This document shows, piece after piece, positions 34,404-55,986 of a stretch of 64,000 bases of DNA (its first letter is position 1; every line of letters begins with the position of its first letter). Position numbers and translations under genes: made by a program. Source of the stretch: Aliiglaciecola sp. M165 (GTDB taxonomy: Bacteria; Pseudomonadota; Gammaproteobacteria; Enterobacterales; Alteromonadaceae); the NCBI RefSeq assembly GCF_007197995.1, contig NZ_VKKH01000002.1, forward strand, positions 248,001 through 312,000, in the 5' to 3' direction. Under the pieces are notes generated by a model. It had not been told where the DNA came from, did not search any database, and saw nothing but the letters and a program-made list of their open reading frames with translations.

Positions 34404-34467
34404 TTTCTTTGTCTCGCTGCATACTGTTAACACTATGTTAACTATTGGTAACGAAACTAAGAATATA

Positions 34468-34483: not shown

Positions 34484-34499
34484 CGCAAGCTGATAAATA

Positions 34500-35075: not shown

Positions 35076-35090
35076 AACCTTTCCATTATT

Positions 35091-35116
35091 GGTAATTTTT
35101 TACTTGATATGTTACC
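35091..35116. promoter_or_regulatory. GGTAA/TTACC pair in the divergent promoter region
   Basis: GGTAA at 35091-35095 and TTACC at 35112-35116 form inverted half-sites, the same words as in the palindrome at 34468-34483, here with opposite orientation and a 16-base gap. They lie between the second TetR gene and the acyl-CoA synthetase gene and may be binding sites of that TetR. The spacing is unlike a single operator, so two separate half-sites are possible. Confidence 0.4.
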
Positions 35117-35199
35117 CAAACTGATCTAAAAATATAACACAGCGTTAACAAAAGTCGACATATATTCCAATCGGCACGATTAATTATAAGGCATTTAAT

Positions 35200-36759: not shown

Positions 36760-36768
36760 GGGACTACG

Positions 36769-37245
36769 ATGCAATCAATTGAATTAGAACTCTTATTCAC
36801 TATCCAAGGACAACTTGGTGAAGCACTGGATTTAGGCAACACCCCTGAAGGTAATCGTATTATTTTCCCGGTAATTGGAGGGTCGTTTAAAGGCCCAAAA
36901 ATTGAAGGGGAAATTGTTCCTGGTACGTGCGCAGATTGGGGGCGAATGAGAAGCGATGGATCCCTTTCCATCGATGTTCGTCTTAGTCTTCGGACTGTCG
37001 AAGGTGATTTAATTTTTATGTCTTACTTAGGAAGAGCAGGCGCTGATCATCCAGAGGGTTTGGCTGCTGCCTTCGATTTTGCCAAGCCGGACCCAAGTGA
37101 GAATAGCGATACCTACTATTTCAGAATATTACCTTTGTTTGAGACCAGCAGTGATAAGTATGCCTGGCTCAACAAAATAGTAGCCGTAGGCTCCGGTATG
37201 ACCGGTGCCGGAGGTGTTATCTATACCGTATACACGGTTAAATAA
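36769..37245 (+). CDS. DUF3237-family protein
   Basis: A protein of 158 residues of the DUF3237 beta-barrel family: ELLFTIQGQLGEALDLG at the start, IIFPVIGGSFKGPKIEGEIV in the centre, DWGRMRSDG and a strand pair carrying DVRLSLRT. The family is common in aromatic and steroid catabolism clusters but its reaction is unknown. It lies 9 bases after the ligase gene. Confidence 0.88.
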   Translation: MQSIELELLFTIQGQLGEALDLGNTPEGNRIIFPVIGGSFKGPKIEGEIVPGTCADWGRMRSDGSLSIDVRLSLRTVEGDLIFMSYLGRAGADHPEGLAAAFDFAKPDPSENSDTYYFRILPLFETSSDKYAWLNKIVAVGSGMTGAGGVIYTVYTVK

Positions 37246-37270
37246 TCATTATATCCATAGGAATCAAGAC

Positions 37271-38383: not shown

Positions 38384-39150
38384 TGACTCTCCTGGCTGAA
38401 AACAAAGTTACTATCGTAACAGGCGGGGCTCGTGGTATCGGTCGTGCTACCTCATTATTGTTCGCCAAAGAAGGCAGTAAAGTTGTGGTATCCGACATAC
38501 TCGAATCAGAAGGAATGGAAACCGTACAAATGATTCAAAATGCTGGAGGCGAAGCTCAATTTATAAGTTGCGATACGGCGAGTGAAGAGGATGTAGCGCT
38601 AATGGTCGAGCGAACAATTTCCGTCTATGGTCGCGTTGACAATTTGGTTAATAACGCAGGCGTCGAGCATATAAGCACAATTATTGATATGGAGCGCTCG
38701 GATTTCGACCGTTTGTCCAGTATCAATTTACGTGGCGTATGGTTGTGCATGAAGTACGTTATTAAGGCCATGTTGAAGCATGGGAATAAAGGCTCAATTG
38801 TAAACATGTCTTCTTTAGCCGGAAATGTCGGCTATGCAGGATTAGGCGCTTATGTAATGAGTAAACATGGTGTAAATGGATTGACTAAAGTTGCTGCTAT
38901 AGAACATTCAGCGGACGGGATTCGAACTAACTCTATCTGCCCTGGATGCATTCAAACTCCCATGATAGATAATTTAGCCGCGGCCATGGGGAACCCAGAA
39001 GCGAAGGAACAACTCGCGGCCATGCACCCGATTGGTCGGCTTGGCACCGCAGATGAAATTGCTGAAGCCATAGTTTGGGTGTGTTCAGAAAGAGCTTCAT
39101 TTGTCACCGGCAGTATTTTTACAGTGGATGGTGGCTGGGTCGCGCAATAA
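38383..39150 (+). CDS. Short-chain dehydrogenase/reductase
   Basis: A 255-residue classical SDR: the cofactor loop TGGARGIGRATSLL, NNAGVEH, catalytic Ser in NMSSLAGN, and Tyr/Lys in AYVMSKHG; ends with FTVDGGWVAQ. Oxidation of a hydroxyl group, for instance a 3-hydroxyacyl-CoA or a ring alcohol, is expected. The stop TAA is followed by a repeat of the ten bases CGCGCAATAA (39141-39160). Last gene of the operon. Confidence 0.92.
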   Translation: MTLLAENKVTIVTGGARGIGRATSLLFAKEGSKVVVSDILESEGMETVQMIQNAGGEAQFISCDTASEEDVALMVERTISVYGRVDNLVNNAGVEHISTIIDMERSDFDRLSSINLRGVWLCMKYVIKAMLKHGNKGSIVNMSSLAGNVGYAGLGAYVMSKHGVNGLTKVAAIEHSADGIRTNSICPGCIQTPMIDNLAAAMGNPEAKEQLAAMHPIGRLGTADEIAEAIVWVCSERASFVTGSIFTVDGGWVAQ

Positions 39151-42096: not shown

Positions 42097-44004
42097 TTGT
42101 TAGCTAAACGCCTGAGTATATTCTGCTTTCTTATTTTGAGCTTTGCCTCAAGTGGGCTTCTCGCGTCTGATAATAAACTCAAAATCGCCATACTAGCCAC
42201 CGGGCCCGAGCAAATGCGGGTCTATTCAAACTTGTTTACTCAATTCGAAAACTCAACTGATATACAAGTCGACGTACAGTTTTTTAGCGACATCAATTTT
42301 AAAAAACATATTCGTAACTGGGTGGAACTAGGTACATATGACGTTCTCTACTGGCAAGGAGGAAAGCGACTTACAAACCTTATTTCTAAGCAAGAGATTG
42401 TTCCTCTGTCTGACCTTATCGACATCACCCACTTTAAACAGCAATATCTGCAAAGCACTATTGACGCAGTCAGCAGCCAAGGGCAGGTTTATGCACTGCC
42501 TCTGGGTCACTACATATGGGGGTTTTATTATAATAAAGAGGTGTTTTCAGAGTTTGACTTAAAGCCACCGAGTAATTGGTCGGAATTTATTGCGATTAAC
42601 GAAGCCTTAAAACAAAATGGCATTAAACCCCTTGTCCAAGCAACAGTCGACGAGTGGCCAGTATTAGCTTGGTTAGATTATCTTGCATTGAATATCGGTG
42701 GGGTTCCCTATCGCAATAAGCTACTTGCTGGTGAATTTGGCGCATCCATACAAGATAAAAAATTAATAGAAGCATTTGACTATTTGGTGTCGAAGGATTT
42801 GTTTTTTGCTAACGAACATGCTTGGAATTGGGAGCAACCCATTGTTTCCGTTGTTCGTAAGCAAGCGGCCATGACATTAAGTGGTCAATTTATAGAAAGC
42901 AAAGCCCAACGAATCGCTGATGACAAAATCGGCTTTTTCCCCTTCCCTCAATTTGAAAATACTCCTCGCCAAACTGAAGTTGCTCCATTGGAAGTTTTAG
43001 TCGTTCCGGTTTCAAGTTCGAATTCCGAGAATAATGCAAAGCTATTGGAGTTTTTAATCGACTTCACAGCAATTGATGCAACTGCGTACAAATTAGGTTG
43101 GCTGTCTGTAAGCAATCAACCTAGTCAGGCAGTAAAGACTTCCGCCCGCACCAGAAGTGCGCAACAGTGGTTAAACAAAACCAAACAACAAATACAGTAT
43201 TTTGATCGGGATACGTCAATCCAAACGTCTTCTTCATGGGCACAAGCAATTACGCAAAGTATTAAAGTTGCCAACGTGAGCCACATAGAGGCGCTAAGCT
43301 CTTCTGATTTAGCCACGAGCACTGAGGAAGCGCCCGATTCAATCGACAACAGTAAACTACTTAGCTTTTCGACACTCAGCGGATTGCGAGGCACGTTTTT
43401 CGTATCCAAAATCCTACATCATGTATACAAACAGCTAGGATACACGTTTCACGTTAACCGATTTGATACCTCGGATGCGGTGATTAACTCGCTTCGTTTG
43501 GCAGCAGATGGTGATTTGATTAGAGCCATTGAATTACCTCAACTGGAAGAATTGGCTATCAAAGTGCCAGAGCCTGTGGGCATTAACAAAGTGTTTTTAG
43601 TGGGGAAAAGCAATACCTGCCAATTAGAAAATAACCAGATTTTGACCGGTAAATCCCTTGGCTATAAAAGCGATGCTGTCGCTTTGCAACAACTGGCTTC
43701 TTCATTAAGCAGTGACAACCTTATTGAGCGAGACCTAGACGCTACGTGGCAAGCTTTTGAGCAGGGAAATCTGGATTACGTATTAATGTTTGAGTCTGAT
43801 CTTCACACCAAAAAGGATCGACTGTTTGATTTATGCCTGAATAAATTGATGGATATTCCTGTTTATCATTATTTAGCCAAGAAGCATGCAGGTTTAGTTA
43901 ATGACGTCTCAGAGTCGCTGCGGACATTCAAGGAAACGGACGAATACAAAGCAATTACTAATGAATTTGGTATTGCGTCACTTCCCGAAACATTGAACTT
44001 CTAA
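42097..44004 (+). CDS. Periplasmic protein with two fused solute-binding domains
   Basis: A 635-residue protein with a Sec signal peptide (to about LLASD). Residues ~25-350 are a family 1 (sugar-type) solute-binding domain: LKIAILATGPEQ, YDVLYWQGGKRL, IWGFYYNKEVFSEF and LKPPSNWSEF are characteristic. A polar linker (~350-425) leads to a second domain (~425-630) with the style of a family 3 binding protein (FFVSKILHHVYKQLGYTFHV ... VLMFESDLHTKKD). No permease or ATPase gene is adjacent. The TTG at 42097 has GAGAG 5 bases upstream. It is probably a sensor or scavenger rather than a transporter part. Confidence 0.72.
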   Translation: MLAKRLSIFCFLILSFASSGLLASDNKLKIAILATGPEQMRVYSNLFTQFENSTDIQVDVQFFSDINFKKHIRNWVELGTYDVLYWQGGKRLTNLISKQEIVPLSDLIDITHFKQQYLQSTIDAVSSQGQVYALPLGHYIWGFYYNKEVFSEFDLKPPSNWSEFIAINEALKQNGIKPLVQATVDEWPVLAWLDYLALNIGGVPYRNKLLAGEFGASIQDKKLIEAFDYLVSKDLFFANEHAWNWEQPIVSVVRKQAAMTLSGQFIESKAQRIADDKIGFFPFPQFENTPRQTEVAPLEVLVVPVSSSNSENNAKLLEFLIDFTAIDATAYKLGWLSVSNQPSQAVKTSARTRSAQQWLNKTKQQIQYFDRDTSIQTSSSWAQAITQSIKVANVSHIEALSSSDLATSTEEAPDSIDNSKLLSFSTLSGLRGTFFVSKILHHVYKQLGYTFHVNRFDTSDAVINSLRLAADGDLIRAIELPQLEELAIKVPEPVGINKVFLVGKSNTCQLENNQILTGKSLGYKSDAVALQQLASSLSSDNLIERDLDATWQAFEQGNLDYVLMFESDLHTKKDRLFDLCLNKLMDIPVYHYLAKKHAGLVNDVSESLRTFKETDEYKAITNEFGIASLPETLNF

Positions 44005-44089: not shown

Positions 44090-44515
44090 ATGCGCGACAC
44101 CTTATCTGTGCATCACATTAATTTCTTAGTTAAAGATCTCGATACAACCTGCGAGTACCTTTCAAAAGTGCTAAGCCAGGATGCGATTAGAGAATCTCTT
44201 CCTTTACGAAACGTTAATACCGCTCGCTTTCAACTTAATAATTGCTGGCTTGTATTGGTTCAACCTCTTTCAGAGCAAGGCGAAGTCGCGCGTATTCTAG
44301 CGCATCGTGGCGAAGGTCTTTTTTTACTCTCATTAGGGTGTGATGATTTAGACAAACAAATTTCTAGGTTGGAGAAACAAGACATCTGTGTGAATGCAAA
44401 AAGTAAACGAAAAGGGCTGTCAGATTGGTCCGTCGTCGACCTTGAGCACCCATCTGGACTCGGGCCAGTTTTGCAGCTTTGCGCGTTAATTAACCCAGCT
44501 TCTAGTAACTCCTAA
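44090..44515 (+). CDS. VOC-family (glyoxalase/lyase fold) protein
   Basis: A 141-residue protein with the opening SVHHINFLVKDLDTTCEYLS of VOC enzymes and a second module later (LFLLSLGCDDLDKQISRLEK). It resembles methylmalonyl-CoA epimerase and glyoxalase-like proteins in size; metal ligands cannot be assigned with certainty. GGAG lies 6 bases before the ATG at 44090. It stands just before the sigma-54 regulated operon. Confidence 0.72.
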   Translation: MRDTLSVHHINFLVKDLDTTCEYLSKVLSQDAIRESLPLRNVNTARFQLNNCWLVLVQPLSEQGEVARILAHRGEGLFLLSLGCDDLDKQISRLEKQDICVNAKSKRKGLSDWSVVDLEHPSGLGPVLQLCALINPASSNS

Positions 44516-44529: not shown

Positions 44530-44560
44530 TTCATTTTGAAATTTTTTATTTCAAAATGAA
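44530..44560. promoter_or_regulatory. 13-bp-arm palindrome, likely upstream activator site
   Basis: TTCATTTTGAAAT and ATTTCAAAATGAA are perfect inverted arms around TTTTT. It lies 101 bases upstream of the sigma-54 element at 44661-44676, the normal distance for an enhancer-binding protein such as the one encoded downstream. Confidence 0.7.
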
Positions 44561-44660
44561 CTTTTTCTTACGCTTTTGCTTAAAAAGTAGTCTCGTAACA
44601 TTTTTTTAACACGCGTTAAATATGGGCCTTGCGGCTTAGCGGTGAGAATTTAATTAACCG

Positions 44661-44676
44661 TGGCATGCCTAATGCA
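44661..44676 (+). promoter_or_regulatory. Sigma-54 (-24/-12) promoter
   Basis: TGGCATGCCTAATGCA matches the sigma-54 consensus TGGCAyr-N4-TTGCw with one mismatch, with GG (44662-44663) and GC (44674-44675) exactly 10 bases apart. Transcription would start near 44687, before the regulator gene's ATG at 44743. Confidence 0.65.
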
Positions 44677-44742
44677 CATGACAAGATATATAGGCATATC
44701 ACGACAAGACAATTGCGAAAACTGAACGGGACGCATTCGTTA

Positions 44743-46599
44743 ATGAATCACTTTGTACACGACGTATCGCCGATTAAAGTATTGATTTTTGGGCATAAAG
44801 AATTCAGCCAATTGGTGAGCAACTTGATGCCTAAATATGAAGCTATGGCGAAGTTTATCATCGTCGATGCCTTGATTGGCAGTGCTGAAGAAGTGAAAAG
44901 CCATGTCAAGGTTCATCAACCCGATGTGATCTTGAGCGGCGGTGCCAATGCTATGTATTTGCAGTCGTGCCTGGATATTCCGGTTGTCCCGACACAGGTG
45001 ACTGAAGCCGATATTATCGAAGCTGTGAAACGTGCCTCGCAAGTCTCTCCAAATGTTGTGCTAATTACCTTCAATGGTCCTTCACCCGTTGTTCCTCTGC
45101 TAGAAGATGCCCTGGGGATCCAAATTAAGGAAGAAACTTATTCTAGAACGGACGAGGCTAGAGAAATATTTCATATTGTCAGCAAACAACCGGATGTTGT
45201 GATCGTTGGCGCGAGCTTAGTTTGCGGATTAGCGTCGCAAAGCAATATTCGATCAGTATTGTTTTATTCTGCTCGGTCATGTGCTTTAGCGATGGAAAAA
45301 GCCATTCAACAAGGACGCCAACGCAGAGGTCAGTTGGAGCAAAAGTCTTTACATAACTGGTTAATGAACCAATCGAAAACTCCCATTATCATGGCTGACC
45401 CCAATGGGAATTCACTGACATTAAACCAAGCGGCAAAACGTGACTTAAATTTGTCATTAGATTTCGAATTTGATTTACAAGATCTCATCCATCCTCAAGA
45501 AAACGCGCAGCCGAGTGATGGCGAATGTTCAATTAATGGCAGCGATTGGTGGTTCCATCGTGACGAAGTGCAAAATGACACGCAGACGATGAATGTCTAC
45601 CAGTTATATCGCAAAAAACCGAAAAACCCAACACTCCCTCCCGTCACATCTCAACCTCATCAAATGGCCTTCCAATCGGCAGACATTAATAAAGTTATGT
45701 CGCAAATAAGTTCATTTGCCTCATCACCAAGTAATGTTTTGATATATGGAGAGTCAGGCACAGGTAAAGAGCTCGTTGCACGTGAGATCTATAGCAAGGG
45801 AGCCTTTAGCCAGGGCAAATTTGTCGCTTTGAATTGCAGTGCCATACCCACCGAATTATTTGAAGGAGAACTTTTTGGTCATCAGGATGGTGCTTACACT
45901 GGATCACGCAGAGGCGGGAGAAAAGGTCTAATTGAGGAAGCACAAGGCGGTGTCCTGTTTTTAGATGAAATTAGTGAATTAGCTCTAGACCAACAATCCA
46001 AATTATTACGTTTCTTGCAGGAGAGAATGTTCCGCCCCCTAGGTGCAAACGAAGAGAAATCTGTTCATTTGAAGCTCGTTGCCGCCTCGAACAAACCCCT
46101 TCACGAACTCGTCGAAGAAGGCAGTTTCCGTCATGATCTTTTTTATCGCCTCAATGTTTTTAACATCACGATCCCACCATTGAGACAACGCCCAGAAGAT
46201 GTGTTGTGTATAGCCCAATCTAAGTTAGACATTTTTTTAGAACGCTACCAACTTCAGATGGATTCTGAAACTGTGCTGGACAGTATCAAACATTTGTTAA
46301 CGCGATATACCTGGCCGGGCAATGTGCGCGAACTGGAAAACATATTGGAAAGGTTAGTTGCGGTGCTATCGCCCCAGCAAGATCTTAGCAACATGGAAGA
46401 CTTGGTCCGAGACATTGCCCCTGAATTGTTTTTGGACCAACAACTATCAACATCAAAAAGCCGGATTAAAAACAAAGAGTTGGAGATGGTCGCCGATGCG
46501 ATGGTGCAGTTCTCCGGAGATAAACAACAGGTAGCGAACTACCTTGGACTAAGTCAAACCACACTTTGGCGAAGACTTAAGCACCTACAAAATAACTAG
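44743..46599 (+). CDS. PrpR-like sigma-54-dependent regulator
   Basis: A 618-residue protein. Residues ~10-190 resemble the PrpR_N ligand-sensing domain; a PAS-like segment follows (~205-285); the AAA+ domain (~320-550) has Walker A GESGTGKE at 336-343 and the sigma-54 contact loop GAYTGS at 383-388 (a GAFTGA variant also near that of PrpR); a Fis-type helix-turn-helix ends the protein (SGDKQQVANYLGLSQTTLWRR). PrpR binds methylcitrate; here the ligand is unknown. I chose the ATG at 44743 because the sigma-54 promoter starts transcription downstream of earlier in-frame codons. The TonB receptor gene follows after 15 bases. Confidence 0.88.
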   Translation: MNHFVHDVSPIKVLIFGHKEFSQLVSNLMPKYEAMAKFIIVDALIGSAEEVKSHVKVHQPDVILSGGANAMYLQSCLDIPVVPTQVTEADIIEAVKRASQVSPNVVLITFNGPSPVVPLLEDALGIQIKEETYSRTDEAREIFHIVSKQPDVVIVGASLVCGLASQSNIRSVLFYSARSCALAMEKAIQQGRQRRGQLEQKSLHNWLMNQSKTPIIMADPNGNSLTLNQAAKRDLNLSLDFEFDLQDLIHPQENAQPSDGECSINGSDWWFHRDEVQNDTQTMNVYQLYRKKPKNPTLPPVTSQPHQMAFQSADINKVMSQISSFASSPSNVLIYGESGTGKELVAREIYSKGAFSQGKFVALNCSAIPTELFEGELFGHQDGAYTGSRRGGRKGLIEEAQGGVLFLDEISELALDQQSKLLRFLQERMFRPLGANEEKSVHLKLVAASNKPLHELVEEGSFRHDLFYRLNVFNITIPPLRQRPEDVLCIAQSKLDIFLERYQLQMDSETVLDSIKHLLTRYTWPGNVRELENILERLVAVLSPQQDLSNMEDLVRDIAPELFLDQQLSTSKSRIKNKELEMVADAMVQFSGDKQQVANYLGLSQTTLWRRLKHLQNN

Positions 46600-46614
46600 A
46601 ACTGGAGAACAACC

Positions 46615-49191
46615 ATGACACGCTTCAAGCCGCACAAAATTGCTAAATCTCTGGCCGTTGCACTCGCCTGTGGCAGCTTATACGCGCCGGTAGGAGTAAT
46701 GGCGCAGGACTCTGCTGATAATGAGGAATTGGAAATCATCAGTATCTCCAGAAAACGTCCAGAAAGCCTGCAGCAGGTGCCTATCGCAGTAACCGCACTA
46801 TCTGAAAAAGACATCGTTTCCGCGGGCGTAGAAAGACCAGCAGATTTTATTAGTCTCATTCCCAATATCAGTATCGTCGATAGCGCCAACGTGGGCGATA
46901 CCCAAGTTAGCATTCGCGGTATTGTCTCCACCCGTGACGCAGAATCCACCTTTGCTTATGTGGTTGACGGCGTGCTGATAACCAACCCGAATGGCTTTAA
47001 CGAGGAGCTTTTAGATATTGCTCAAATTGAAGTGCTTAAAGGTCCACAAGGCGCTCTTTATGGCCGAAACGCTGTGTCTGGGGCGATTCTCGTTACAACC
47101 AAAGCCCCTTCTGACGAATTTGAAGGGAATGTCAGAATCGGTTTAGGTAACAACGACACCCAACGATTTAGCGGCGTGATAAGCGGCGGTTTGTCAGAAA
47201 ATCTTCGAGGACGGCTTACGGTTAATACAAACAAAACTGATGGTCATTACACCAACGTTTTTACTGGCGCAGACGACTCAGTCGATTTCCTTGAAGACAC
47301 ATCTATCAAAGGCCGATTAATGTGGGATGTAAGTGAAGATTTCACTCTGGATATGCGTTTTGCCCGCAGTGATGTAGAAGGCGGTGCGATTAACTTTAAT
47401 GCGGTATTTGCCCTGCCGTCATTTGAAACAGCCTTTGTTCAACCGGCTTATTTTGCTGACGTCAATGATCATGACTTTATTTTTGCCTTTAACGTGCCCG
47501 GTGAAAACGAACAAGAAACCACAGAGCTATCGATCAAGGGAGACTGGGACCTGGATGGATATGATGTGACTGGGATCCTAGCCTACAATGATCTCGAAGA
47601 ATATTTACTCTCAGACGGCACCAGTGCGTCATTTTATGGCTACGAATTAACCCCACAATGTCAGACGGATCGCGCCACCTTGAACAACGCTCCAGAAGCT
47701 ATTGGCGGTGCGGGTCGTACCGACTTGTTTGGGGAATTCTTTGCACCCTTTGGCGTTTTCCAGCCCGGCGTTGAGTTTACTGGTGTTTACGGCCCTTACA
47801 CACCTACAGCCTGTGATGGCTATCAATATCAAAACCGCAGTCAATCAGATTTCAGTGGTGAGCTTCGCTTTACCTCTGACGAAAACGATGAAGCCTACCG
47901 GTGGATTGCAGGGGTTTATTTTGCAGAGATCGAGCGAGATGTAGTTGTCGCTTATGGGGCGGACACAGGCCAAGGGTTCTTGCGTCAGGCATATGTGCCA
48001 GCGAGTGGGCCAAACCCGACGGACTTGTTGTTCGATGATACCTTTGACACCTCCGTACTTTCTGCATTTGGTCAAGTGGAATATGACTTAAATGACCAAT
48101 GGGAACTCGCGGTAGCCTTGCGTTATGACTACGAAGACAGAGAGGTTTCTAACAACGTACCCAATGTTAGCGCCTCAGGGTTAAACATTAACACTATTGT
48201 TAATGGCGTCGTAGGTCCAATTAACCCAGCATTCACCGCCAATCCCGATGGTATTCCTAACCGGAGTCGGTCGTTTTCCCAGTGGCAACCCAAAGTCACA
48301 CTTGCATACGATGCCAGTGAAAACGTTAATTGGTATGCCAGTTATGGCGTGGGCTTCAGAAGTGGTGGTTTCAATTCCATTGGGACCCAGGCGACCTTAG
48401 ATTTCTGGTTTAATCAATCTGGCAATGGTACGCCAGGAGATGCGGTCAATGCACAATTGAAAGTGGCAGATGAATATGAAAAAGAAGTCACTACCAACAT
48501 CGAACTGGGCTTCAAGTCCAAATTGATGGATAACAAAGTGCGCCTAAATGCAGCGCTCTTCCGGACAACCGTTGAAGACAATCAATTCTTTGAATTTTTT
48601 GCCGGGCCTTTTGGTTTATTGCGCGCAGTAACCACAATAGACGAGTTGGAAATCAGTGGATTTGAAATGGATATTCAGGCGCAAGTCACTGAAGACGTGC
48701 GACTATTTGCCGGTGTTGGATTGTTGGATTCAGAAATCAAAGAAAACCAAAACCGGCCGCTCACCGTTGGAAACAGTGCTCCTCAGGCTCCAGATGAAAC
48801 CTTCACCCTAGGCTTCATGTGGGACTATACGCTTAGCGAAGATTTGTTTGTGACCACTCGCATTGACTATCAATACATTGGCGATACCTTTTTCCATACC
48901 TTACAAGGCGAACGAACTCCGACTATTTGGGACTTCTTTGGCACCTTGGGTGGAGGTGTACCACCAGGCCCACACTCACAAGACTTTAGCCGTGCAAAAC
49001 GAGATGCTTACGGCACACTCAATGCCCGCATCACCTTTGATGCCGAGGCTTGGTCGTTGGCATTGTGGGCTAAAAACTTAACAGATGAAGAATATTTGCA
49101 AGAAGTCATACCTGCGCCGGAATTTGGTGGTTCTTTTATTCACCCTTCTGCCCGGGATTCTTACGGGGTTGAATTCACCTATCGATTTTAA
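46615..49191 (+). CDS. TonB-dependent receptor (second of two)
   Basis: An 858-residue outer-membrane receptor with a signal peptide ending near GVMAQ, a TonB-box-like EIISISRKR, the plug blocks QVSIRGIVSTRD and IEVLKGPQGALYGRNAVSG, and an aromatic C-terminal strand (YGVEFTYRF). GGAG lies 9 bases before the ATG. Being the second gene after the PrpR-like activator, it probably imports the pathway substrate. Confidence 0.93.
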   Translation: MTRFKPHKIAKSLAVALACGSLYAPVGVMAQDSADNEELEIISISRKRPESLQQVPIAVTALSEKDIVSAGVERPADFISLIPNISIVDSANVGDTQVSIRGIVSTRDAESTFAYVVDGVLITNPNGFNEELLDIAQIEVLKGPQGALYGRNAVSGAILVTTKAPSDEFEGNVRIGLGNNDTQRFSGVISGGLSENLRGRLTVNTNKTDGHYTNVFTGADDSVDFLEDTSIKGRLMWDVSEDFTLDMRFARSDVEGGAINFNAVFALPSFETAFVQPAYFADVNDHDFIFAFNVPGENEQETTELSIKGDWDLDGYDVTGILAYNDLEEYLLSDGTSASFYGYELTPQCQTDRATLNNAPEAIGGAGRTDLFGEFFAPFGVFQPGVEFTGVYGPYTPTACDGYQYQNRSQSDFSGELRFTSDENDEAYRWIAGVYFAEIERDVVVAYGADTGQGFLRQAYVPASGPNPTDLLFDDTFDTSVLSAFGQVEYDLNDQWELAVALRYDYEDREVSNNVPNVSASGLNINTIVNGVVGPINPAFTANPDGIPNRSRSFSQWQPKVTLAYDASENVNWYASYGVGFRSGGFNSIGTQATLDFWFNQSGNGTPGDAVNAQLKVADEYEKEVTTNIELGFKSKLMDNKVRLNAALFRTTVEDNQFFEFFAGPFGLLRAVTTIDELEISGFEMDIQAQVTEDVRLFAGVGLLDSEIKENQNRPLTVGNSAPQAPDETFTLGFMWDYTLSEDLFVTTRIDYQYIGDTFFHTLQGERTPTIWDFFGTLGGGVPPGPHSQDFSRAKRDAYGTLNARITFDAEAWSLALWAKNLTDEEYLQEVIPAPEFGGSFIHPSARDSYGVEFTYRF

Positions 49192-49271
49192 TCGCTAAGT
49201 TCTCGTGCAATGTGGGGGGAGTGTGTTTATTCCCCCTCAAATCTATACAGTTTTTAGGAGTAACGGTTGAA

Positions 49272-50471
49272 ATGAACAAGCCACTTGCTGGTATCAGAAT
49301 ATTGGATCTGACACATATGTTGTCAGGACCATATTGCGGGATGATTTTAGCTGATTTAGGTGCCGAAACAATCAAAGTAGAACCCCTCAAGGGTGAGGGT
49401 ACTCGAAAATTGCTCGCCAATGATCCAGAAAATTCACTTAATGGAATGGGCGCATACTTCATCACACTCAACCGCAATAAAAGTAGCGTTTGCATCGATC
49501 TCAAATCAGAACAAGGTCTGGCTGTTTTTTATGATTTGGTGAGAGAGGCGGATGTAGTTATCAATAATTTCGGAGCAGGAGTACCGACGCGACTAAAAAT
49601 CGATTTTGAACATCTTAAACACGTTAATCCGCGGATTATTACTTGTTCCATTACCGGCTTTGGCAATGATGGGCCCAATTATAAACGCCCTGCATTTGAC
49701 CAGGTAGCACAAGCTACGGGTGGCGGCATGTCTATCACTGGTGCTTCACCCGAACAGCAGGTCAGAGCGGGCATTCCCATAGGCGATTTGGGCGGCGGAA
49801 TGTTTGCAGTAATGGGTATTCAGGCTGCGTTGTTAGAACGAGAAAAAAGTGGGTTCGGACAAGACGTCGATATCTCCATGTTGGATTGCCAGATTTCACT
49901 GCTCAACTATATGGCTACAATGCACTTCCTCTCTGGTAAAGATCCCTATCCTATCGGCAACTCGCACTTTGTACATGTGCCTTATGACACCTTTAAAACA
50001 GCGGATGGTTTTATTGTGATAGCGGTCATTACTGACAATTTCTGGGCCAATTTAAAGGAAGTTGTCAATTGCCCTGATTTTGATTGTGTGCTGTTGGATG
50101 GTCAACCGGGACGGTTCGAGTTTAAAGATATGATCACCGACAAACTTAACGAGATATTGTCTACCAAACCCTCGGCCTATTGGATTGAAAAACTGGAAGA
50201 GGCGCGAATTCCTTGTGCCCCGGTTAACAAATTTTCGCAAGCGCTGAGTGACGAGCAAGTGCTCTACCGTAATATGGTTGTCGATTTGAAACATCCTGAC
50301 GGTACCAGCACAAAAGGGCCAGGCAACCCAATTAAGTTCTCGCGCACAAACGAAGAGAGTTTTTCTCCTGCGCCTGATTTGGGTGAGCAGACCGAGCAAG
50401 TTTTGTCTGAGTTGCTAAACATGGATCCAGTAAAAATCGCTCAGCTAAAACAGCAAAAGGTGATTGGGTAA
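49272..50471 (+). CDS. CoA-transferase family III (CaiB/BaiF)
   Basis: A protein of 399 residues. LAGIRILDLTHMLSGPYCGM opens the fold, and the catalytic Asp is probably Asp172 in IPIGDLGGGMFAV. It would transfer CoA from a donor such as succinyl-CoA to a carboxylic acid. The ATG at 49272 is preceded by AGGAG at about 13 bases. Its stop overlaps the start of the HMG-CoA lyase-like gene by one base, so the two enzymes probably act in succession: activation, then cleavage. Confidence 0.92.
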   Translation: MNKPLAGIRILDLTHMLSGPYCGMILADLGAETIKVEPLKGEGTRKLLANDPENSLNGMGAYFITLNRNKSSVCIDLKSEQGLAVFYDLVREADVVINNFGAGVPTRLKIDFEHLKHVNPRIITCSITGFGNDGPNYKRPAFDQVAQATGGGMSITGASPEQQVRAGIPIGDLGGGMFAVMGIQAALLEREKSGFGQDVDISMLDCQISLLNYMATMHFLSGKDPYPIGNSHFVHVPYDTFKTADGFIVIAVITDNFWANLKEVVNCPDFDCVLLDGQPGRFEFKDMITDKLNEILSTKPSAYWIEKLEEARIPCAPVNKFSQALSDEQVLYRNMVVDLKHPDGTSTKGPGNPIKFSRTNEESFSPAPDLGEQTEQVLSELLNMDPVKIAQLKQQKVIG

Positions 50472-51388
50472 TGACGACAAAAACTGTGATCATTAATGAT
50501 GTAGGGCCCAGAGATGGCTTACAAAATCAACCTAAAGTCCTTACTTTGGAGCAGCGCTTACAACTGATTAAGGCACTTCGTACCGCAAGCATACCAGCAA
50601 TAGAAGTGGGAGCCTTCGTGTCGCCCAAAGCCGTGCCTGCAATGGCGGGCACCGGAGAGTTGGTTACTCAACTTCCATCAGGTCCTTGCGCTTATTCGGC
50701 TCTTATTCCTAATCAGAAAGGCTATGAGTTGGGCAAGGAATCCAACATTCCAATCATGTCGTTAGTGCTAGCCGCGTCAAACACAATGAACGAAAAAAAC
50801 ATACGCCAAAGTACCAAAGAAGGGTTTATGACCTGCGCCAAGGTGCTGCAACAAGCAAAGTCAGACGGTACGCACGTTCAAGTATACGTTGCAACGGCTT
50901 GGGCCTGTCCTTTTGAAGGTGCAATCACTGAAGACTCTGTCATTAGCCTCACCGATAGATTAATGACGGCTGGAGCAAAACATATTGTGGTAGCAGATAC
51001 CATAGGAGCTGCCCACCCTGAGCAGTCTTATTTGCTTATGAGCCGCCTCGTTAATGAGTTTGGTGCCAATCAATTGTCCTGTCATTTTCATGATACCCGA
51101 GCAATGGGTCTTGCCAACGTTTACGCTGCGTTACAAGCCGGTATTCGGCAATTTGATGCATCGATTGGTGGCTTAGGTGGATGTCCATTTGCGCCGGGTG
51201 CCAGCGGTAACGTTGCCACCGAGGACGTAGTCATGATGTTGGAGCAAATGGGCTATGAAACTGGTATCGATATGCCATCTTTGTTGAATGCATCAGATTT
51301 AGCAATTGAGCTGACAGGCACTGCGCGCGGTGGAAAAGCCAAGGCGTGGTTAGAAAAATATTATGCCCAATCGGCGTTGGCCGGTTGA
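50471..51388 (+). CDS. HMG-CoA lyase-like enzyme
   Basis: A 305-residue TIM-barrel enzyme of the HMGL family: NDVGPRDGLQNQPKVL (catalytic Arg-Asp), SCHFHDTRAMGLANV (metal-binding His pair) and the Cys loop GGLGGCPFAPGASGNVATED are all intact. HMG-CoA lyase yields acetyl-CoA and acetoacetate; close relatives cleave other 3-hydroxy-3-alkyl-glutaryl-CoA esters. The gene overlaps the CoA-transferase gene and precedes hyuA by 17 bases. Confidence 0.92.
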   Translation: MTTKTVIINDVGPRDGLQNQPKVLTLEQRLQLIKALRTASIPAIEVGAFVSPKAVPAMAGTGELVTQLPSGPCAYSALIPNQKGYELGKESNIPIMSLVLAASNTMNEKNIRQSTKEGFMTCAKVLQQAKSDGTHVQVYVATAWACPFEGAITEDSVISLTDRLMTAGAKHIVVADTIGAAHPEQSYLLMSRLVNEFGANQLSCHFHDTRAMGLANVYAALQAGIRQFDASIGGLGGCPFAPGASGNVATEDVVMMLEQMGYETGIDMPSLLNASDLAIELTGTARGGKAKAWLEKYYAQSALAG

Positions 51389-51405
51389 GAAATTTGGAGA
51401 CTGAA

Positions 51406-53487
51406 ATGAGTTATAGACTAGGTGTTGACGTAGGTGGAACCTTCACGGATTTGCTACTCATCAATGAAAAAAGTGGCGAAACTTACACGGCGAAAGTCCC
51501 TTCGACCCCCAAAGATTCCTCTGTAGGTGTACTCAATGGCATAGCCAGAATATGCGAAGAATCAGGCGTAGATGTTACGCAAATCAATCGCGTCATGCAC
51601 GGTACTACGGTCGCGACCAATGCGGTTCTCACTGGCAAAGGCGCAAAAGTGGGGCTCGTCACAACCGCAGGCTACAAGCAAGTATTGCAAGTTGCCCGTT
51701 CTTTTTGTCCGGGAGGCTTAGGTGGTTGGGTTAGCTACGTGAAAAAGCCTTTGCTGGCACCACTGGAGCTAACCATTGAAGCCAATGAACGCATTGGAGC
51801 TGATGGCTCAGTAGTCGAAGAATTGGACGAACAGGTCCTTAGAGACTCCCTTACAACACTTAAAAACACCGGGCAAGTCGAGGCGCTGACGATTTGCTTT
51901 ATCAATTCATACATCAATCCAGCTCATGAGCAAAGGGCAAAAGCAATTGGTCAGCAGATTTTTGGCGACGTGCCCATTTCAATCTCCAGTGATATCGTCC
52001 CTGAGATGCAGGAATACGAGCGAACTGAAACCACAGTTATCAACAGTTATGTTCGTCCTGAAGTCGCCCGCTATGTTGAAAATCTCAACAATTCACTTAA
52101 AAGTAAAATGGGTGAAAATCTGCATCTGTCAATTCTGCGCTCCGACGGTGGATTAGCCTCAGCAAGAGCCTCCTCAGAAAATCCAGTCAACCTGTTAATG
52201 TCCGGCCCAGCAGGCGGAGTGTCCGGCGCCATTCATTTTTGTTCCAAAGCAGGCTTTGACAATATTTTGACCTTTGACATGGGTGGTACCTCCACTGACG
52301 TTGCGTTAATACAAAATGGTAAGGCCAGAGTGAGACGAGAAACTCGGGTGGCTGATGTCACGGTGCGAGCACCGTCGGTGGACGTTAGAACTGTTGGCGC
52401 CGGAGGAGGTTCTATTGCCTTCGTCCCTGAGCTCACTAAAGCATTACGGGTAGGCCCCGAATCAGCAGGTGCCGAACCTGGACCGGCCGCTTACATGAAA
52501 GGCGGCACAGAGCCCACAGTATGCGACGCAAATGTTGTGTTGGGTTACTTGCCTAGTGATGTGCAATTGGGCGGTAAAATGGCCATTGATAAACAGGCAG
52601 CTATTGAGGCGATGAAAAAAGTGGCAGATGCCATGGACGTCAGTATCGAAGAAGCGGCAGAAGGGATCATCAAGATTGTAAACGAATCAATGTTTGGCGC
52701 ATTGCGTCTGGTGTCTGTGGAGCAGGGATTCGATCCACGAGATTTTGCTTTAGTTGGATTTGGAGGAGCAGGCCCCTTGCATGCCAACGCCTTAGGCATT
52801 TTGACCAATGCATGGCCAACAATCGTTCCGCCAGGGCCCGGCGTTTTATGTGCCTACGGTGATGCGACAACAGAAGTCCGTGACGAAGCCTCTCGAAGCT
52901 TTGTTTCTCTACTAAAAGATATCGAAAACACCGACTTTGAAACGATGTTGAGTGAACTACGGGAAAAAGCAACAGACACCCTAAGCAAAGATGGCATTCC
53001 AGCAGAACAACAAAGCGTTATATTCCAAGCGGATGTGCGCTACACAGGACAAGCATTCCAATTGTCAGTGGAATTTGACCAGGCACAATGGGAGCGTGAA
53101 GGCCTTGGTCTGCTAAAAACAAGGTTCGACGAGGAGCATACACAGTTATTCACTTTTGCACTGGAAGAGGGTCACGAAATTGTTATGGTCAGAGCTATTG
53201 CTACAGCGAAAGCAGAGCCTCTGCCTGATCCTGTCGTAGGGGTAGAAGGAACAAGCATAGAAGATTGCAAGATAGCGAATAGCCAAATTTATTATGGAGG
53301 AAAGCACCACGACACGGTGATTTACGACCGGGCAAAACTGCATGAGAGTTTGGAGGTGTATGGTCCTGCCATTGTCTCTGAAATGGATTCCACCACCGTC
53401 ATCTTACCGGGCTATCTGGCAACCGTTGATCGCATTGGTAACTTACTCATCAATCCTGTTAATTCCACCTCGGCGCGAGGAGAATAA
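51406..53487 (+). CDS. Hydantoinase/oxoprolinase-type subunit A (HyuA-like)
   Basis: A 693-residue protein: the ASKHA-fold phosphate loop YRLGVDVGGTFTDLLLI, MHGTTVATNAVL, the LMSGPAGGVSGAIHFC block, FDMGGTSTDVALI and GFGGAGPLHANALG. This is the ATP-binding subunit of ATP-dependent hydantoinases, N-methylhydantoinases, caprolactamases and 5-oxoprolinases. The length fits the hydantoinase/caprolactamase group better than acetone carboxylase. The ATG at 51406 has TTGGAGA 6-8 bases upstream. hyuB follows after 3 bases. Confidence 0.9.
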   Translation: MSYRLGVDVGGTFTDLLLINEKSGETYTAKVPSTPKDSSVGVLNGIARICEESGVDVTQINRVMHGTTVATNAVLTGKGAKVGLVTTAGYKQVLQVARSFCPGGLGGWVSYVKKPLLAPLELTIEANERIGADGSVVEELDEQVLRDSLTTLKNTGQVEALTICFINSYINPAHEQRAKAIGQQIFGDVPISISSDIVPEMQEYERTETTVINSYVRPEVARYVENLNNSLKSKMGENLHLSILRSDGGLASARASSENPVNLLMSGPAGGVSGAIHFCSKAGFDNILTFDMGGTSTDVALIQNGKARVRRETRVADVTVRAPSVDVRTVGAGGGSIAFVPELTKALRVGPESAGAEPGPAAYMKGGTEPTVCDANVVLGYLPSDVQLGGKMAIDKQAAIEAMKKVADAMDVSIEEAAEGIIKIVNESMFGALRLVSVEQGFDPRDFALVGFGGAGPLHANALGILTNAWPTIVPPGPGVLCAYGDATTEVRDEASRSFVSLLKDIENTDFETMLSELREKATDTLSKDGIPAEQQSVIFQADVRYTGQAFQLSVEFDQAQWEREGLGLLKTRFDEEHTQLFTFALEEGHEIVMVRAIATAKAEPLPDPVVGVEGTSIEDCKIANSQIYYGGKHHDTVIYDRAKLHESLEVYGPAIVSEMDSTTVILPGYLATVDRIGNLLINPVNSTSARGE

Positions 53488-53490
53488 AAA

Positions 53491-55359
53491 ATGAAAAATA
53501 AAATATGCGAAACAAATACCGCTCCCATTAAACGTGTTGATGTTGATACCGTGACGGTTGATATTATTGAAAATGCCCTAAAAAATGCTCGTGAAGAAAT
53601 GGATGCTGTGCTTTTCCGCACCGCGATGAGTCCAGGGATCCGCGAACAGGGAGACTGCTTTCCAATGATAGCCAATAAAGATGGCAAAATGGTCGTTGGT
53701 CAATTTGGTTCTTTTATTCACGGTTTCATGGAAGCCTTTGAGGGGGAATTGGAAGAAGGCGATATCGTGCTAACCAATGACCCCTACATGACCAATGCCG
53801 CGGTTTCTCACCTGCCAGATTGGATCGTATTGGTACCTATTTTTAAAGATGGAAGACACATTGCCTGGTCTGCAATGTTCGGACATATGTCCGACAACGG
53901 TGGCATGGTACCCGGCTCAATTCCCATCAAAGCCGAAAGTATTTATCAAGAAGGGATCCGTATTCCTCCAACCAAATTGTACAAAAAAGGCGAGTTGCAA
54001 GGGGACCTGCTTGAGCTGATTTTACACAATGTCAGAACACCACAATGGAATCGTTTTGATCTAAATGCTTTGGTAGCGGCATGCAATACAGCAGCAAAAC
54101 GCTGCAAGGAAATAGCCGAGCGCTTTGGCGATGACATTTTTTATTCGACCATGGAGATCATGTTAGAGCGCAACCACACCGCTATGAGCGCCATCATTAA
54201 CATGCTAGTACCGGAGGAGCCCAGAGTATTTGAAGATTATGTGTGCGACGATGGTGTAGGCATGGGGCCATACAAGATCCGATGCAAAATGTGGCGCGAA
54301 GGCAATAAGGCCATCTTTGACTTTGAAGGCACCGACCCACAGGCCAGCAGCTCCATCAACTTCTATTTGAACGAAGAAATGTTCAAGATGTTTTTTGGTT
54401 CTTTCACCATAAACCTCGTTGACCCTCAGATCCTGTTTAATGACGGATTTTATGACCTGGTAGAGGTCAACATTCCAGCGGGAAGTCTTTTAAAACCGCA
54501 CTTCCCGGCCGCGCTATCAGGTCGAACCCATGCATTGGGAAGAATTTTTGATGTAATGGGCGGTTTGTTAGGCCAAGGAGCACCGGAGGCCATGAATGCA
54601 GCTGGGTTTTCAGATTCTCCTCACTTGTTTTTTTCAGGCTACGACGACAAAGGCGAGTGGTTCCAATTGTTCCAAATTGGCTTTGGCGGGATCCCAGGAC
54701 GCCCTGTTGGAGATGGTCCAGATGGGCACTCATTGTGGCCCGGATTCACCAATGTCCCCAATGAGTTTATCGAAGCTTATTTCCCTTTACGGGTCGAAAA
54801 ATATGAAACCATTGCCGATTCAGGTGGCGCAGGTCTGCACCGCGGAGGAAACGGTTTGAACGTGGCATATCGCTTTTTATGTGACGGACAAATTGCCATA
54901 CATGACGAACGCTGGTTGACCTACCCTTGGGGTGTCAATGGCGGAGAACCCGGCAAGCGCTCAACAAAATTAATCGAACGTGCAGATGGCAGCAAAGAGT
55001 GGTTACCTGCCAAATGTGATGGTATTGATGTGAAAAAAGGCGACTTATTACATTTCAATACCTGGGGAGGCGGCGGTTGGGGCGACCCATTTGAACGACC
55101 ACCTGAACTGGTGCTTGACGATGTAAAACGTCAGTTGGTGACAATAGAAGGTGCTAAACGGTATGGCGTTGTGATCAATAAGGATCTAACTGTCAATGAA
55201 GGTGAAACCTTGGCACTTCGCGCTAAACTCAGTGAGCAAAGAGGTGATGTGAGTTTGTTTGATTTTGGTGGCACGATTGAACAAATTAAGGCGCGGTGCG
55301 AGCAAGAAACCGGGCTGAAACCGCCGCAAACACCGGTATTTAGGAAAGCACGGGCATAA
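53491..55359 (+). CDS. Hydantoinase-type subunit B (HyuB-like)
   Basis: A 622-residue protein, partner of HyuA: ALKNAREEMDAVLFRTAMSP near the N-terminus, LTNDPYM, GHMSDNGGMVPGS and the C-terminal GGGGWGDPFERPPELV mark the family. The HyuAB pair opens a cyclic amide or imide with ATP. No third small subunit (as in acetone carboxylase) is present, which favours hydantoinase/caprolactamase chemistry. Confidence 0.9.
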   Translation: MKNKICETNTAPIKRVDVDTVTVDIIENALKNAREEMDAVLFRTAMSPGIREQGDCFPMIANKDGKMVVGQFGSFIHGFMEAFEGELEEGDIVLTNDPYMTNAAVSHLPDWIVLVPIFKDGRHIAWSAMFGHMSDNGGMVPGSIPIKAESIYQEGIRIPPTKLYKKGELQGDLLELILHNVRTPQWNRFDLNALVAACNTAAKRCKEIAERFGDDIFYSTMEIMLERNHTAMSAIINMLVPEEPRVFEDYVCDDGVGMGPYKIRCKMWREGNKAIFDFEGTDPQASSSINFYLNEEMFKMFFGSFTINLVDPQILFNDGFYDLVEVNIPAGSLLKPHFPAALSGRTHALGRIFDVMGGLLGQGAPEAMNAAGFSDSPHLFFSGYDDKGEWFQLFQIGFGGIPGRPVGDGPDGHSLWPGFTNVPNEFIEAYFPLRVEKYETIADSGGAGLHRGGNGLNVAYRFLCDGQIAIHDERWLTYPWGVNGGEPGKRSTKLIERADGSKEWLPAKCDGIDVKKGDLLHFNTWGGGGWGDPFERPPELVLDDVKRQLVTIEGAKRYGVVINKDLTVNEGETLALRAKLSEQRGDVSLFDFGGTIEQIKARCEQETGLKPPQTPVFRKARA

Positions 55360-55392
55360 AGGTTAATGCTCCTAACTTATAGGCTGAGCTGA

Positions 55393-55986
55393 ATGACAGA
55401 CAGAGATCTTAGAATTGGTGAGTTAGACATTGGAAGTCGCCCGGCACTGATAGTTGTGGATTTGTCGTTGGGTTTCAGCTCGCCCGAAAGTCCCCTAGGC
55501 GGCGACTTTAGTCAGGTGATTAAAGCCAATGTAAAACTTGTTGAGCAATTCAGGCGCCACAATTGGCCTATTTTCTTTTCAACCGTGGTTTACCATGACG
55601 AGAAAAAAGCCAGCGTGTTCAGGCAAAGATTACCCGATTTGAATATTTTACAAGCCAATTCAAAATGGGTAGAGATACACCCTGATATGGGTTTAACCTC
55701 AACAGATACGCTGATTGAAAAGCAGTGGCCTAGCGCTTTTTTTGATACGCCGTTGAATCAAATGCTTCAACAAGCTCATGTTGACTCGCTAGTAATAACC
55801 GGGCTGACAACAAGCGGTTGTGTGCGCGCAACCGCCGTTGATGGCTTACAACACAACTATCCAGTATTTTTGCCACGAGAGGCCTGTGGTGACCGAAACA
55901 ACAGCGCTCACCACGCGAGTTTACACGACATCCATGCAAAATATGGCACCGTGATGTCGCTCGACGAATTGCTTCAGCAACTCTAG
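55393..55986 (+). CDS. Isochorismatase-family cysteine hydrolase
   Basis: A 197-residue protein with the amidase triad of this family: Asp23 (LIVVDLSLGF), Lys110 (IEKQWPSAFFDT) and Cys143 (GLTTSGCVRATAVDG). Relatives include N-carbamoylsarcosine amidase and nicotinamidase. Downstream of hyuAB, an N-carbamoyl-amino-acid hydrolase role is plausible, as in the creatinine/N-methylhydantoin route. It begins 34 bases after hyuB and ends the rightward operon; the next gene is convergent. Confidence 0.88.
   Translation: MTDRDLRIGELDIGSRPALIVVDLSLGFSSPESPLGGDFSQVIKANVKLVEQFRRHNWPIFFSTVVYHDEKKASVFRQRLPDLNILQANSKWVEIHPDMGLTSTDTLIEKQWPSAFFDTPLNQMLQQAHVDSLVITGLTTSGCVRATAVDGLQHNYPVFLPREACGDRNNSAHHASLHDIHAKYGTVMSLDELLQQL

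Follow-up and report, generated by a model that had tools for sequence, protein, structure and literature searches.

A conserved gene module in Aliiglaciecola sp. M165 combines HyuAB and a cysteine amidase with a CoA-transferase and an HMGL-family lyase: a possible catabolic route for substituted cyclic imides

N-methylhydantoinase (7hk5 series) and the caprolactamase CapAB (6YRA) consist of an ATP-binding and a metal-binding subunit, and the ATP motifs, the phosphate-site residue Lys32 and a metal tetrad have been described for CapAB (PMC8453981). Relatives of NicF (3uao), a maleamate amidohydrolase (PMC5806882), and of N-carbamoylsarcosine amidohydrolase (26st, 1nba) act after the ring of an N-heterocycle has been opened. 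The itaconate/methylsuccinate cluster (ict, ich and ccl, with mmgE) joins a coenzyme A (CoA)-transferase to a lyase that cleaves a branched hydroxy-dicarboxylyl-CoA, and an MmgE/PrpD protein goes with this cluster (PMC12290011). We analyzed a 64,000-nucleotide stretch of Aliiglaciecola sp. M165 (RefSeq assembly GCF_007197995.1, contig NZ_VKKH01000002.1, positions 248,001 to 312,000 of the forward strand; hereafter the window, to which all coordinates refer) in which an island at 44530-55986 places enzymes of these kinds in one co-directional unit. A preliminary description of this DNA had counted nine elements on one strand, and all nine were confirmed on the + strand from the open reading frame (ORF) list and the sequence:

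44530..44560, no strand assigned: tandem operator of two palindromic 11-bp TTCAWWWTGAA copies, at which the PrpR-like activator is presumed to have its upstream activating site (motif conservation)
44661..44676, + strand: -24/-12 (sigma-54) promoter, TGGCATGCCTAATGCA (motif score)
44743..46599, + strand: PrpR-like sigma-54 activator with PrpR_N sensor, AAA+ domain and Fis-type helix-turn-helix (domain profiles)
46615..49191, + strand: TonB-dependent outer-membrane receptor (PF07715, PF00593)
49272..50471, + strand: class III (CaiB-type) CoA-transferase (PF02515, 391.7 bits)
50471..51388, + strand: HMGL-family retro-Claisen lyase (NF004283, 313.5 bits)
51406..53487, + strand: HyuA, ATP-binding subunit of an ATP-dependent cyclic-amide hydrolase (PF05378, PF01968, PF19278)
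53491..55359, + strand: HyuB, metal-binding hydrolytic subunit (PF02538)
55393..55986, + strand: isochorismatase-fold cysteine amidase, ICH (PF00857)

Each of the seven operon proteins passed the Pfam gathering score for its own family. The starts in the ORF list lay too far 5' for three genes, whose translations point to ATG codons at 44743 (PrpR-like), 49272 (CaiB) and 51406 (HyuA). The intergenic gaps are all short, as the preliminary description had stated: 15 bp for PrpR-like/TonB, 80 for TonB/CaiB, -1 (an overlap) for CaiB/HMGL, 17 for HMGL/HyuA, 3 for HyuA/HyuB and 33 for HyuB/ICH.

In our reading, the island serves the catabolism of a cyclic imide substituted on carbon, or of a compound yielding one; this interpretation is tentative and falls somewhat short of probable. 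Its closest logic is that of the itaconate cluster with an added nitrogen-removing front end, together with nicotinate-type routes. The itaconate/methylsuccinate cluster differs in having no HyuAB or amidase front end and in using a CitE-type (S)-citramalyl-CoA lyase in place of HMGL. In nicotinate fermentation, a LeuCD-family hydratase (DmdAB) feeds 2,3-dimethylmalate lyase, a member of the phosphoenolpyruvate-mutase family. A Glaciecola locus, L069, resembles that branch in having LeuCD, ICH and a PrpB-like lyase side by side (LeuCD and the lyase on opposite strands); the fermentation branch differs as an anaerobic pyridine route without HyuAB. Each of these enzyme families is already known, and what appears to be new is their combination, of which we found no description in the titles and abstract beginnings of the open-access literature searched, which is not proof of absence.

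Genome contigs were scanned with HyuB, and the best 80 of 584 (HyuB identity 77-90%), all Proteobacteria by title, were compared. Of these loci, 49 were fully flanked (at least 6 kb on both sides). Neighbors were counted within 9 kb of HyuB and took the label of their top blastp match, provided that E was <= 1e-12 and 40% or more of the query was covered; for CaiB, identity went down to about 26%. Because the loci were drawn from near relatives, their counts are not independent, and some species are repeated (HMGL rows are identical in L024, L156 and L157, as are LeuC rows in L075 and L154 and in L030 and L161). Among the fully flanked loci, CaiB was a neighbor in 43/49, HMGL in 45/49, ICH in 40/49, a TonB-labeled gene in 40/49 and a PrpR-like gene in 21/49. 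HyuA, CaiB, HMGL and ICH occurred together near HyuB in 38 of the 49; 36 also had a TonB-labeled gene, and 18 had PrpR in addition. Over all 80 loci, a TonB-labeled gene lay within 9 kb in 57, in 56 of them at 40% identity or more. Neither CaiB nor HMGL was found in L067, L069, L075 and L077, all fully flanked, and L050 and L089 had HMGL without CaiB. Across 22 related genomes, that of the window among them, HMGL at 63% identity or higher was present in exactly the 6 with HyuB at 85% or more and in none of the 16 others. Among 60 related genomes, again counting the window's, HyuB itself reached at least 79% identity in 9 (one with two copies) and had any match in 15; it matched at E <= 1e-120 in 14 of 398 genomes sampled from the phylum (own included). 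On this comparative evidence, the union of CaiB, HMGL, HyuAB and amidase is a real conserved module; the joint pathway of the preliminary description presupposed that such genes occur together in other genomes, and they do.

Titles of the best 80 contigs named Alteromonadaceae genera, SAR92, SAR86, NOR5-3 and Halioglobus, Woeseiaceae, and Lysobacterales. The module was found, whole or in part, in contigs titled SAR86, SAR92 and NOR5; the compound it acts on may therefore be common in the dissolved organic nitrogen pool. One locus titled as a Klebsiella pneumoniae metagenome bin (L083) carried a marine-type module with an HMGL near-identical to that of an uncultured gammaproteobacterium (L064), and its title is probably wrong.

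Among plasmids, 925 records matched, 11 of them at 60-80% identity, and ten regions were opened, of which one lacked annotation and was labeled with our own blastp searches. An Acidiphilium plasmid carried HMGL, CaiB, HyuAB and ICH, with LeuD at greater distance, and Novosphingobium plasmids carried TonB, HMGL, HyuAB and CaiB, with ICH in the annotated one. On a Geobacillus plasmid a sigma-54 activator, ICH, HyuAB, CaiB and HMGL were present, with LeuCD beyond a transposase; a Rubrobacter plasmid had CaiB, HyuAB and ICH, and no lyase was seen in the region opened. Two haloarchaeal plasmids combined HyuAB, ICH and CaiB with an enzyme of the isopropylmalate synthase (IPMS)/citramalate synthase family, and a Natronomonas plasmid combined HyuAB and ICH with a PrpB-like lyase. 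On two sphingomonad plasmids HyuAB lay beside oxidoreductases and succinate-semialdehyde dehydrogenase, with a methyltransferase in one, and because of this different setting HyuAB of this group is not limited to one pathway. The HyuB proteins of module relatives are 45-90% identical to that of the window, and plasmid records annotate relatives of these HyuAB as 5-oxoprolinase, N-methylhydantoinase B or hydantoinase/oxoprolinase family. Tying HyuAB to one set of downstream chemistries in bacteria and haloarchaea turns such vague annotation into a testable pathway.

HyuA scored 464 bits against N-methylhydantoinase and 413 against caprolactamase 6yra, compared to 295 and 238 against carboxylases, and HyuB scored 242 and 181 against the same hydrolases, compared to 107 and 61 against carboxylases. 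By bit score, HyuAB is nearer lactam and hydantoin hydrolases than acetone or acetophenone carboxylases; membership in a carboxylase clade, raised in the preliminary description, is not what these values (scores, not a tree) indicate. The window pair shares the two-subunit build, ATP motifs, Lys32 and metal tetrad with N-methylhydantoinase and CapAB. It differs from them in its linkage to CaiB, HMGL and, in part, LeuCD, and in scoring under the caprolactamase equivalogs NF050156 and NF050157 (546.6 and 192.2 bits, cut-off 1000 for both). In alignments that exclude loci from L152 upward (near-duplicates) and rows outside length limits, the Asp of phosphate motif P1 in HyuA was kept in 94/97 rows (3 gaps), and the Asp of phosphate motif P2 and the adenosine-motif Gly and Pro in 97/97. 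The Lys aligned with CapA Lys32, a strictly conserved phosphate-site residue, was likewise kept in 94/97 rows (3 gaps). 5-Oxoprolinases are marked by lack of a Lys that PMC8453981 numbers 40 in CapA; the Lys scored here is another position, matching Lys32 and not residue 40. The Asp-His-Asp-His tetrad of HyuB (residues 55, 107, 110 and 132) was kept in 99/100 (1 gap), 100/100, 100/100 and 96/100 rows; in the other 4 of the 100 the fourth metal residue, His132 in the window, is Asn. The residues checked do not separate hydrolase from carboxylase, because the Asp at CapA position 302 also occurs, in our alignments, in acetone carboxylase beta and in one acetophenone carboxylase subunit.

The amidase matched solved relatives 26st (132.5 bits), 4l07 (122.1), 3ot4/3uao (93.5) and 1nba (88.3), and it exceeded no curated equivalog cut-off. 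We take 4l07 and 4l08 to be the maleamate amidase of P. putida S16. The isochorismatase fold and the Asp-Lys-Cys triad are common to the window protein, NicF and N-carbamoylsarcosine amidohydrolase; Asp23 and Lys110 are present in 73/73 rows and Cys143 in 72/73 (one X). These scores do not separate half-amide from carbamoyl substrates.

The CaiB protein was nearest, among NCBIfam models, to succinate-glutarate and succinyl-CoA:mesaconate CoA-transferases, below the cut-off of both. Its best solved matches were a formyl-CoA transferase entry (238.1 bits) and succinate-hydroxymethylglutarate CoA-transferase 9br6 (227.6 bits), and its presumed catalytic Asp was present in 81/81 rows. In a tree of a picked subset of loci the CaiB slot was filled by several separate lineages; these rest on distance as much as on topology, because the tree warns of long branches meeting.

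The HMGL protein scored above the 3-hydroxy-3-methylglutaryl-CoA (HMG-CoA) lyase subfamily cut-off (NF004283, 313.5 vs 246 bits), and five catalytic positions (R, D, H, H and C) were conserved in 75/75 rows. All trees were quick, with Shimodaira-Hasegawa-like approximate likelihood ratio (SH-aLRT) support only. In the HMGL tree (rows of 251-379 aa; the Geobacillus HMGL is a long branch), 17 leucine-type paralogues formed their own clade (support 100) and the window protein fell in a 60-row clade of cluster proteins (99). A second clade of 19 rows held alphaproteobacterial, Woeseiaceae and a few other loci, and five paralogues (L183-L187) grouped with rows from L056, L084 and L087, which adjoin other CaiB genes outside the module. 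The paralogues of the separate clade would be those serving leucine degradation. Since the window lineage stands apart from them, the label "HMG-CoA lyase" of the preliminary description, which the subfamily score bears out, need not imply HMG-CoA as substrate. A role of the window HMGL in leucine degradation was rejected, given its separate lineage and a second HMGL paralogue, 39% identical, in the same genome. In SAR92/Porticoccaceae-type loci (L078, L085, L086, L090, L092, L093 and L095), genes that by eye resemble those for leucine/isovalerate degradation adjoin the module on the opposite strand, among them a MerR regulator, an acyl-CoA dehydrogenase, a carboxyltransferase and, in some, an enoyl-CoA hydratase.

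LeuC lay within 9 kb of HyuAB in 13 of the 80 loci, and also near HyuAB in Geobacillus and further loci. A LeuC tree of 43 rows (23 in-cluster, each over 350 aa, and 20 biosynthetic) requires at least three changes between the two labels, which means more than one addition of the LeuCD step. Eight in-cluster rows, 6 of them different, formed a group nested in the Alteromonadaceae biosynthetic clade (support 99), and the in-cluster LeuC of genome G010 was sister to the same genome's LeuC (99). Thus, as far as the tree goes, LeuCD was recruited beside HyuAB repeatedly, twice apparently from leucine-biosynthesis copies. LeuCD interconverts 2- and 3-alkylmalates via alkylmaleates. The lyase slot is also refilled, by the IPMS/citramalate-synthase-family enzymes of the two haloarchaea and by the PrpB-like proteins of Natronomonas and Glaciecola L069, all four below equivalog cut-offs; both families carry out 2-alkylmalate/2-oxo-acid chemistry. 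With the same slots refilled by other lineages, comparative genomics predicts the intermediate, a 2-alkylmalate-type acid, ahead of any assay.

Related gene sets were seen in other settings. A HyuAB-free island in the window's genus (L190:3929-18014; HyuAB elsewhere in that genome) holds CaiB, two ICH, two PuuE-like cyclic amidohydrolases, LeuCD, a PrpB-like lyase, an iron alcohol dehydrogenase and a methyltransferase, and looks like a parallel module with a different ring opener. A ring opener, an amidase and malate-type branched-acid enzymes are common to this set and the module variants. At L188:3787-13942 and L189:5932-17525, CaiB, HMGL and LeuCD occur without HyuAB, with a GntR regulator, an FAD-linked oxidase and an alpha/beta hydrolase, and the partnership of LeuCD with HMGL thus also exists without that front end. 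At L077:11972-19930, and also in L075, L153 and L154, HyuAB and LeuCD lie near an operon with an FAD monooxygenase, an arylmalonate-decarboxylase-like protein (Pfam Amdase), a PuuE-like protein and an aldehyde dehydrogenase, a set that resembles pyridine-ring degradation.

Searches with E. coli AspC, GabT, IlvE, IlvA (in part), AspA and DadA gave matches within 9 kb in just 3 of 110 loci, two of the same species, and DadA gave none; sensitivity was limited, some of the loci extending less than 9 kb on a side. Because each query was a single E. coli K-12 protein, distant aminotransferases could be missed. A control query for aldehyde dehydrogenase found matches within 9 kb in 16 of the 110. In the creatinine/N-methylhydantoin pathway, creatinine deaminase and sarcosine oxidase or dehydrogenase would be expected as neighbors of HyuAB; DadA found nothing, though no search aimed at these enzymes was made. 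With so few aminotransferase, ammonia-lyase or amino-acid-dehydrogenase genes nearby, the nitrogen probably leaves as ammonia from the half-amide, in better agreement with an imide than with a hydantoin or a lactam.

Upstream of the activator gene, the preliminary description had seen a palindrome; it is present, not singly but as a tandem pair, at 44530-44540 (TTCATTTTGAA) and 44550-44560 (TTCAAAATGAA), start-to-start 20 bp or about two helical turns. Within the 4.6 Mb genome the tandem is confined to this locus, and single copies of TTCAWWWTGAA lie elsewhere in the window at 31799 and 46064. In a survey that excluded L152 and L155-L161, 17 loci, the window among them, had the order PrpR-TonB-CaiB; 16 of these held at least one copy and 12 at least two, and no copy was found in L023 or in any of the 12 loci of other gene order. 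The chance expectation from shuffling was 0.23 of all 29 loci; shuffles here and for the promoter preserve base counts only.

The -24/-12 promoter also noted in the preliminary description (TGGCATGCCTAATGCA) reached 0.87 of the maximum score. A score of 0.85 was reached by 0.55% of 2000 base shuffles of the promoter region, and shuffles of the window's upstream region averaged 0.68. Best scores were 0.83-0.97 in the 17 loci ordered PrpR-TonB-CaiB, compared to 0.63-0.83 in the 12 others. In L155 and L156 (0.50 and 0.57) the upstream DNA was cut off, and in L030, L031 and L034 the promoter falls just within the called ORF, ORF starts being uncurated. As a positive control, the TGGCACACCCCTTGC promoter was recovered in the prpR-prpB gap of E. 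coli K-12.

The activator has a PrpR_N domain and scored 415.5 bits against the PrpR equivalog TIGR02329, under the cut-off of 499.2; used as query, it matched only itself in its own genome at E <= 1e-60. The sensor domain and a sigma-54 promoter are common to this locus and the E. coli PrpR/prpBCDE control region; the latter differs in that the window regulator is below the PrpR equivalog cut-off and the K-12 gap has no operator of the window type. An operator common to the window and E. coli PrpR was considered and rejected, as the K-12 prpR-prpB gap contains no TTCA-N(1-5)-TGAA site. Because operator and promoter are conserved with the PrpR-TonB-CaiB order, the tandem is unique in the genome and the activator is the sole match, we infer that the activator acts on its own operon. 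Of the "one autoregulated operon" claimed earlier, the co-directional unit with its own activator is observed, and autoregulation is suggested by operator and promoter.

We propose a route in which substrate, order of steps, each reaction and regulation are predicted from the sequence evidence above. The TonB receptor would import the substrate or a precursor, HyuAB would open the ring with ATP to a half-amide, and the cysteine amidase would free ammonia, leaving an alkyl-maleate- or malate-type dicarboxylic acid. If this acid is unsaturated, a LeuCD-type hydratase could add water to give a 2-alkylmalate, a tertiary alcohol; in some relatives this enzyme would be the one in the operon, and in the window organism perhaps housekeeping LeuCD. 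The CaiB enzyme would then form the CoA ester, and the HMGL enzyme would cleave it in a retro-Claisen reaction, yielding an acyl-CoA and a 2-oxo acid. Control would lie with the PrpR-like activator, sensing an intermediate and switching on its own operon through the tandem operator and the sigma-54 promoter. The substrate type guessed earlier, a cyclic amide or imide with a branched acid attached, gains support from the recruitment of LeuCD, the refilled malate-type lyases and the scarcity of aminotransferases.

Several observations weigh against this imide route. N-methylhydantoinase is the best solved match of HyuAB, and the amidase is equally near to maleamate amidase and to N-carbamoylsarcosine amidohydrolase, its own best solved match. 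Imidases are not known to need ATP. The classical HMGL substrate, HMG-CoA, has no carboxyl on the carbinol carbon. HyuAB of this group also occurs in other settings (the two sphingomonad plasmids; L067, L075 and L077). Beyond its biosynthetic copy, no LeuC was found in the window's genome, and 39 of the 49 fully flanked loci have none within 9 kb, so the hydration step may fall outside the main route. CaiB specificity cannot be read from the family: in the same source, Mct is described as inactive with citramalate and citraconate and the Chloroflexus malate CoA-transferase as highly active with (S)-citramalate (PMC5592240).

The solved relatives of HyuA, HyuB and the amidase would all suit a scheme with a 5-substituted or N-methyl hydantoin as the ring that HyuAB opens; the amidase would then take off the carbamoyl group, while CaiB and HMGL would degrade a separate branched acid released from the same precursor. 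An allantoinase-like gene near HyuAB in L061 (241.8 bits, cut-off 357.85), with a homologue in L056, points the same way. However, the leftover amino acid would need an aminotransferase, oxidase or lyase, few of which were found nearby (with the limited sensitivity given above), and the repeated LeuCD and alternative 2-alkylmalate-type lyases beside HyuAB go unexplained; we consider this scheme unlikely. The N-methylhydantoin opening and carbamoyl hydrolysis of the preliminary description have lost ground for the same reasons, CaiB, HMGL and LeuCD being left without a role. Quite unlikely, in our judgment, is a six-membered imide, in which an alkylglutaconimide (a dihydroxypyridine tautomer) yields 3-alkylglutaconate and then 3-hydroxy-3-alkylglutaryl-CoA for classical HMGL cleavage. 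The HMGL score above the HMG-CoA lyase cut-off would fit, as would the kinship of CaiB to 9br6, second to the formyl-CoA transferase entry, but the IPMS-like and PrpB-like substitutes and LeuCD act on malate-type acids, not glutarates.

HyuAB could also open a lactam such as 3-hydroxyoxindole-3-acetate, CaiB activating the acetate arm and HMGL releasing acetyl-CoA and an aryl-2-oxo acid. HyuAB followed by a CoA-transferase, which we take to be IaaL, has a precedent in anaerobic indoleacetate (iaa) degradation. The hydantoinase-like hydrolase of that pathway is IaaCE (PMC8453981), and its locus has been described (PMC9613470). With the amidase and LeuCD left without a role, and with PMC12633357 naming, for the aerobic iad route, functions of acyl-CoA synthase, thiolase and alcohol dehydrogenase instead, a lactam seems improbable. 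An indole-3-acetate/oxindole assignment of the island, although attractive as chemistry, was likewise tried and rejected: amidase and LeuCD would be unexplained, and the descriptions of the aerobic iad pathway in the relevant parts of PMC12633357, PMC11630574 and PMC9613470 name no HyuAB or HMGL. We regard a carboxylase role as highly improbable; in it, HyuAB would use ATP to carboxylate a ketone or enol and so build a branched dicarboxylic acid for CaiB and HMGL to cleave. HyuAB is homologous to acetone and acetophenone carboxylases and the checked residues, the Asp of CapA-302 included, do not discriminate, but scores (not a tree) are clearly higher to hydrolases, in the window hyuA, hyuB and the amidase gene follow one another with no gene for a further subunit among them, and the linked amidase would be unexplained.

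Within the preferred imide interpretation, there is very little probability that the substrates are tetrapyrrole-derived dialkylmaleimides (hematinic acid, methylvinyl- or ethylmethylmaleimide from chlorophyll, haem or bilins). HyuAB and the amidase would remove the imide nitrogen, and the dialkylmaleate would be hydrated, CoA-activated and split to pyruvate and a short acyl-CoA. The evidence gives no specific pointer to tetrapyrroles, and mono-alkyl maleates agree better than dialkyl ones with the recruitment of biosynthetic LeuCD. If true, this would be a dedicated marine bacterial route mineralizing pyrrole rings, fed by the TonB receptor.

One further gene, outside the nine elements, accompanies the module within 9 kb of HyuAB in 22 of the 80 loci:

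44090..44515, + strand: VOC/glyoxalase-fold protein, upstream companion gene, distantly methylmalonyl-CoA-epimerase-like by profile (Pfam PF13669)

It scored 37.9 bits against the NCBIfam model TIGR03081 (cut-off 114.95). We aligned it to the epimerase metal-ligand pattern, with presumed mapping of the four positions; the pattern's His was kept in 28/28 rows and its Gln in 18/28, but the third position held Phe (28/28) and the fourth Gln (27/28). The sub-threshold score and the last two residues do not support a working methylmalonyl-CoA epimerase. Farther upstream, at 42097-44004, a 635-aa protein has an extracellular solute-binding domain (SBP_bac_1) as its N-terminal half; the rest, about 300 residues, had no Pfam match at E <= 1e-5. 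Another stretch that may be catabolic lies at 29390-39150, with an acyl-CoA dehydrogenase (29390-30673), a TonB receptor (30692-33358), an AMP-dependent ligase (35200-36759), a DUF5938/saccharopine-dehydrogenase-like protein (37205-38383) and a short-chain dehydrogenase (38383-39150).

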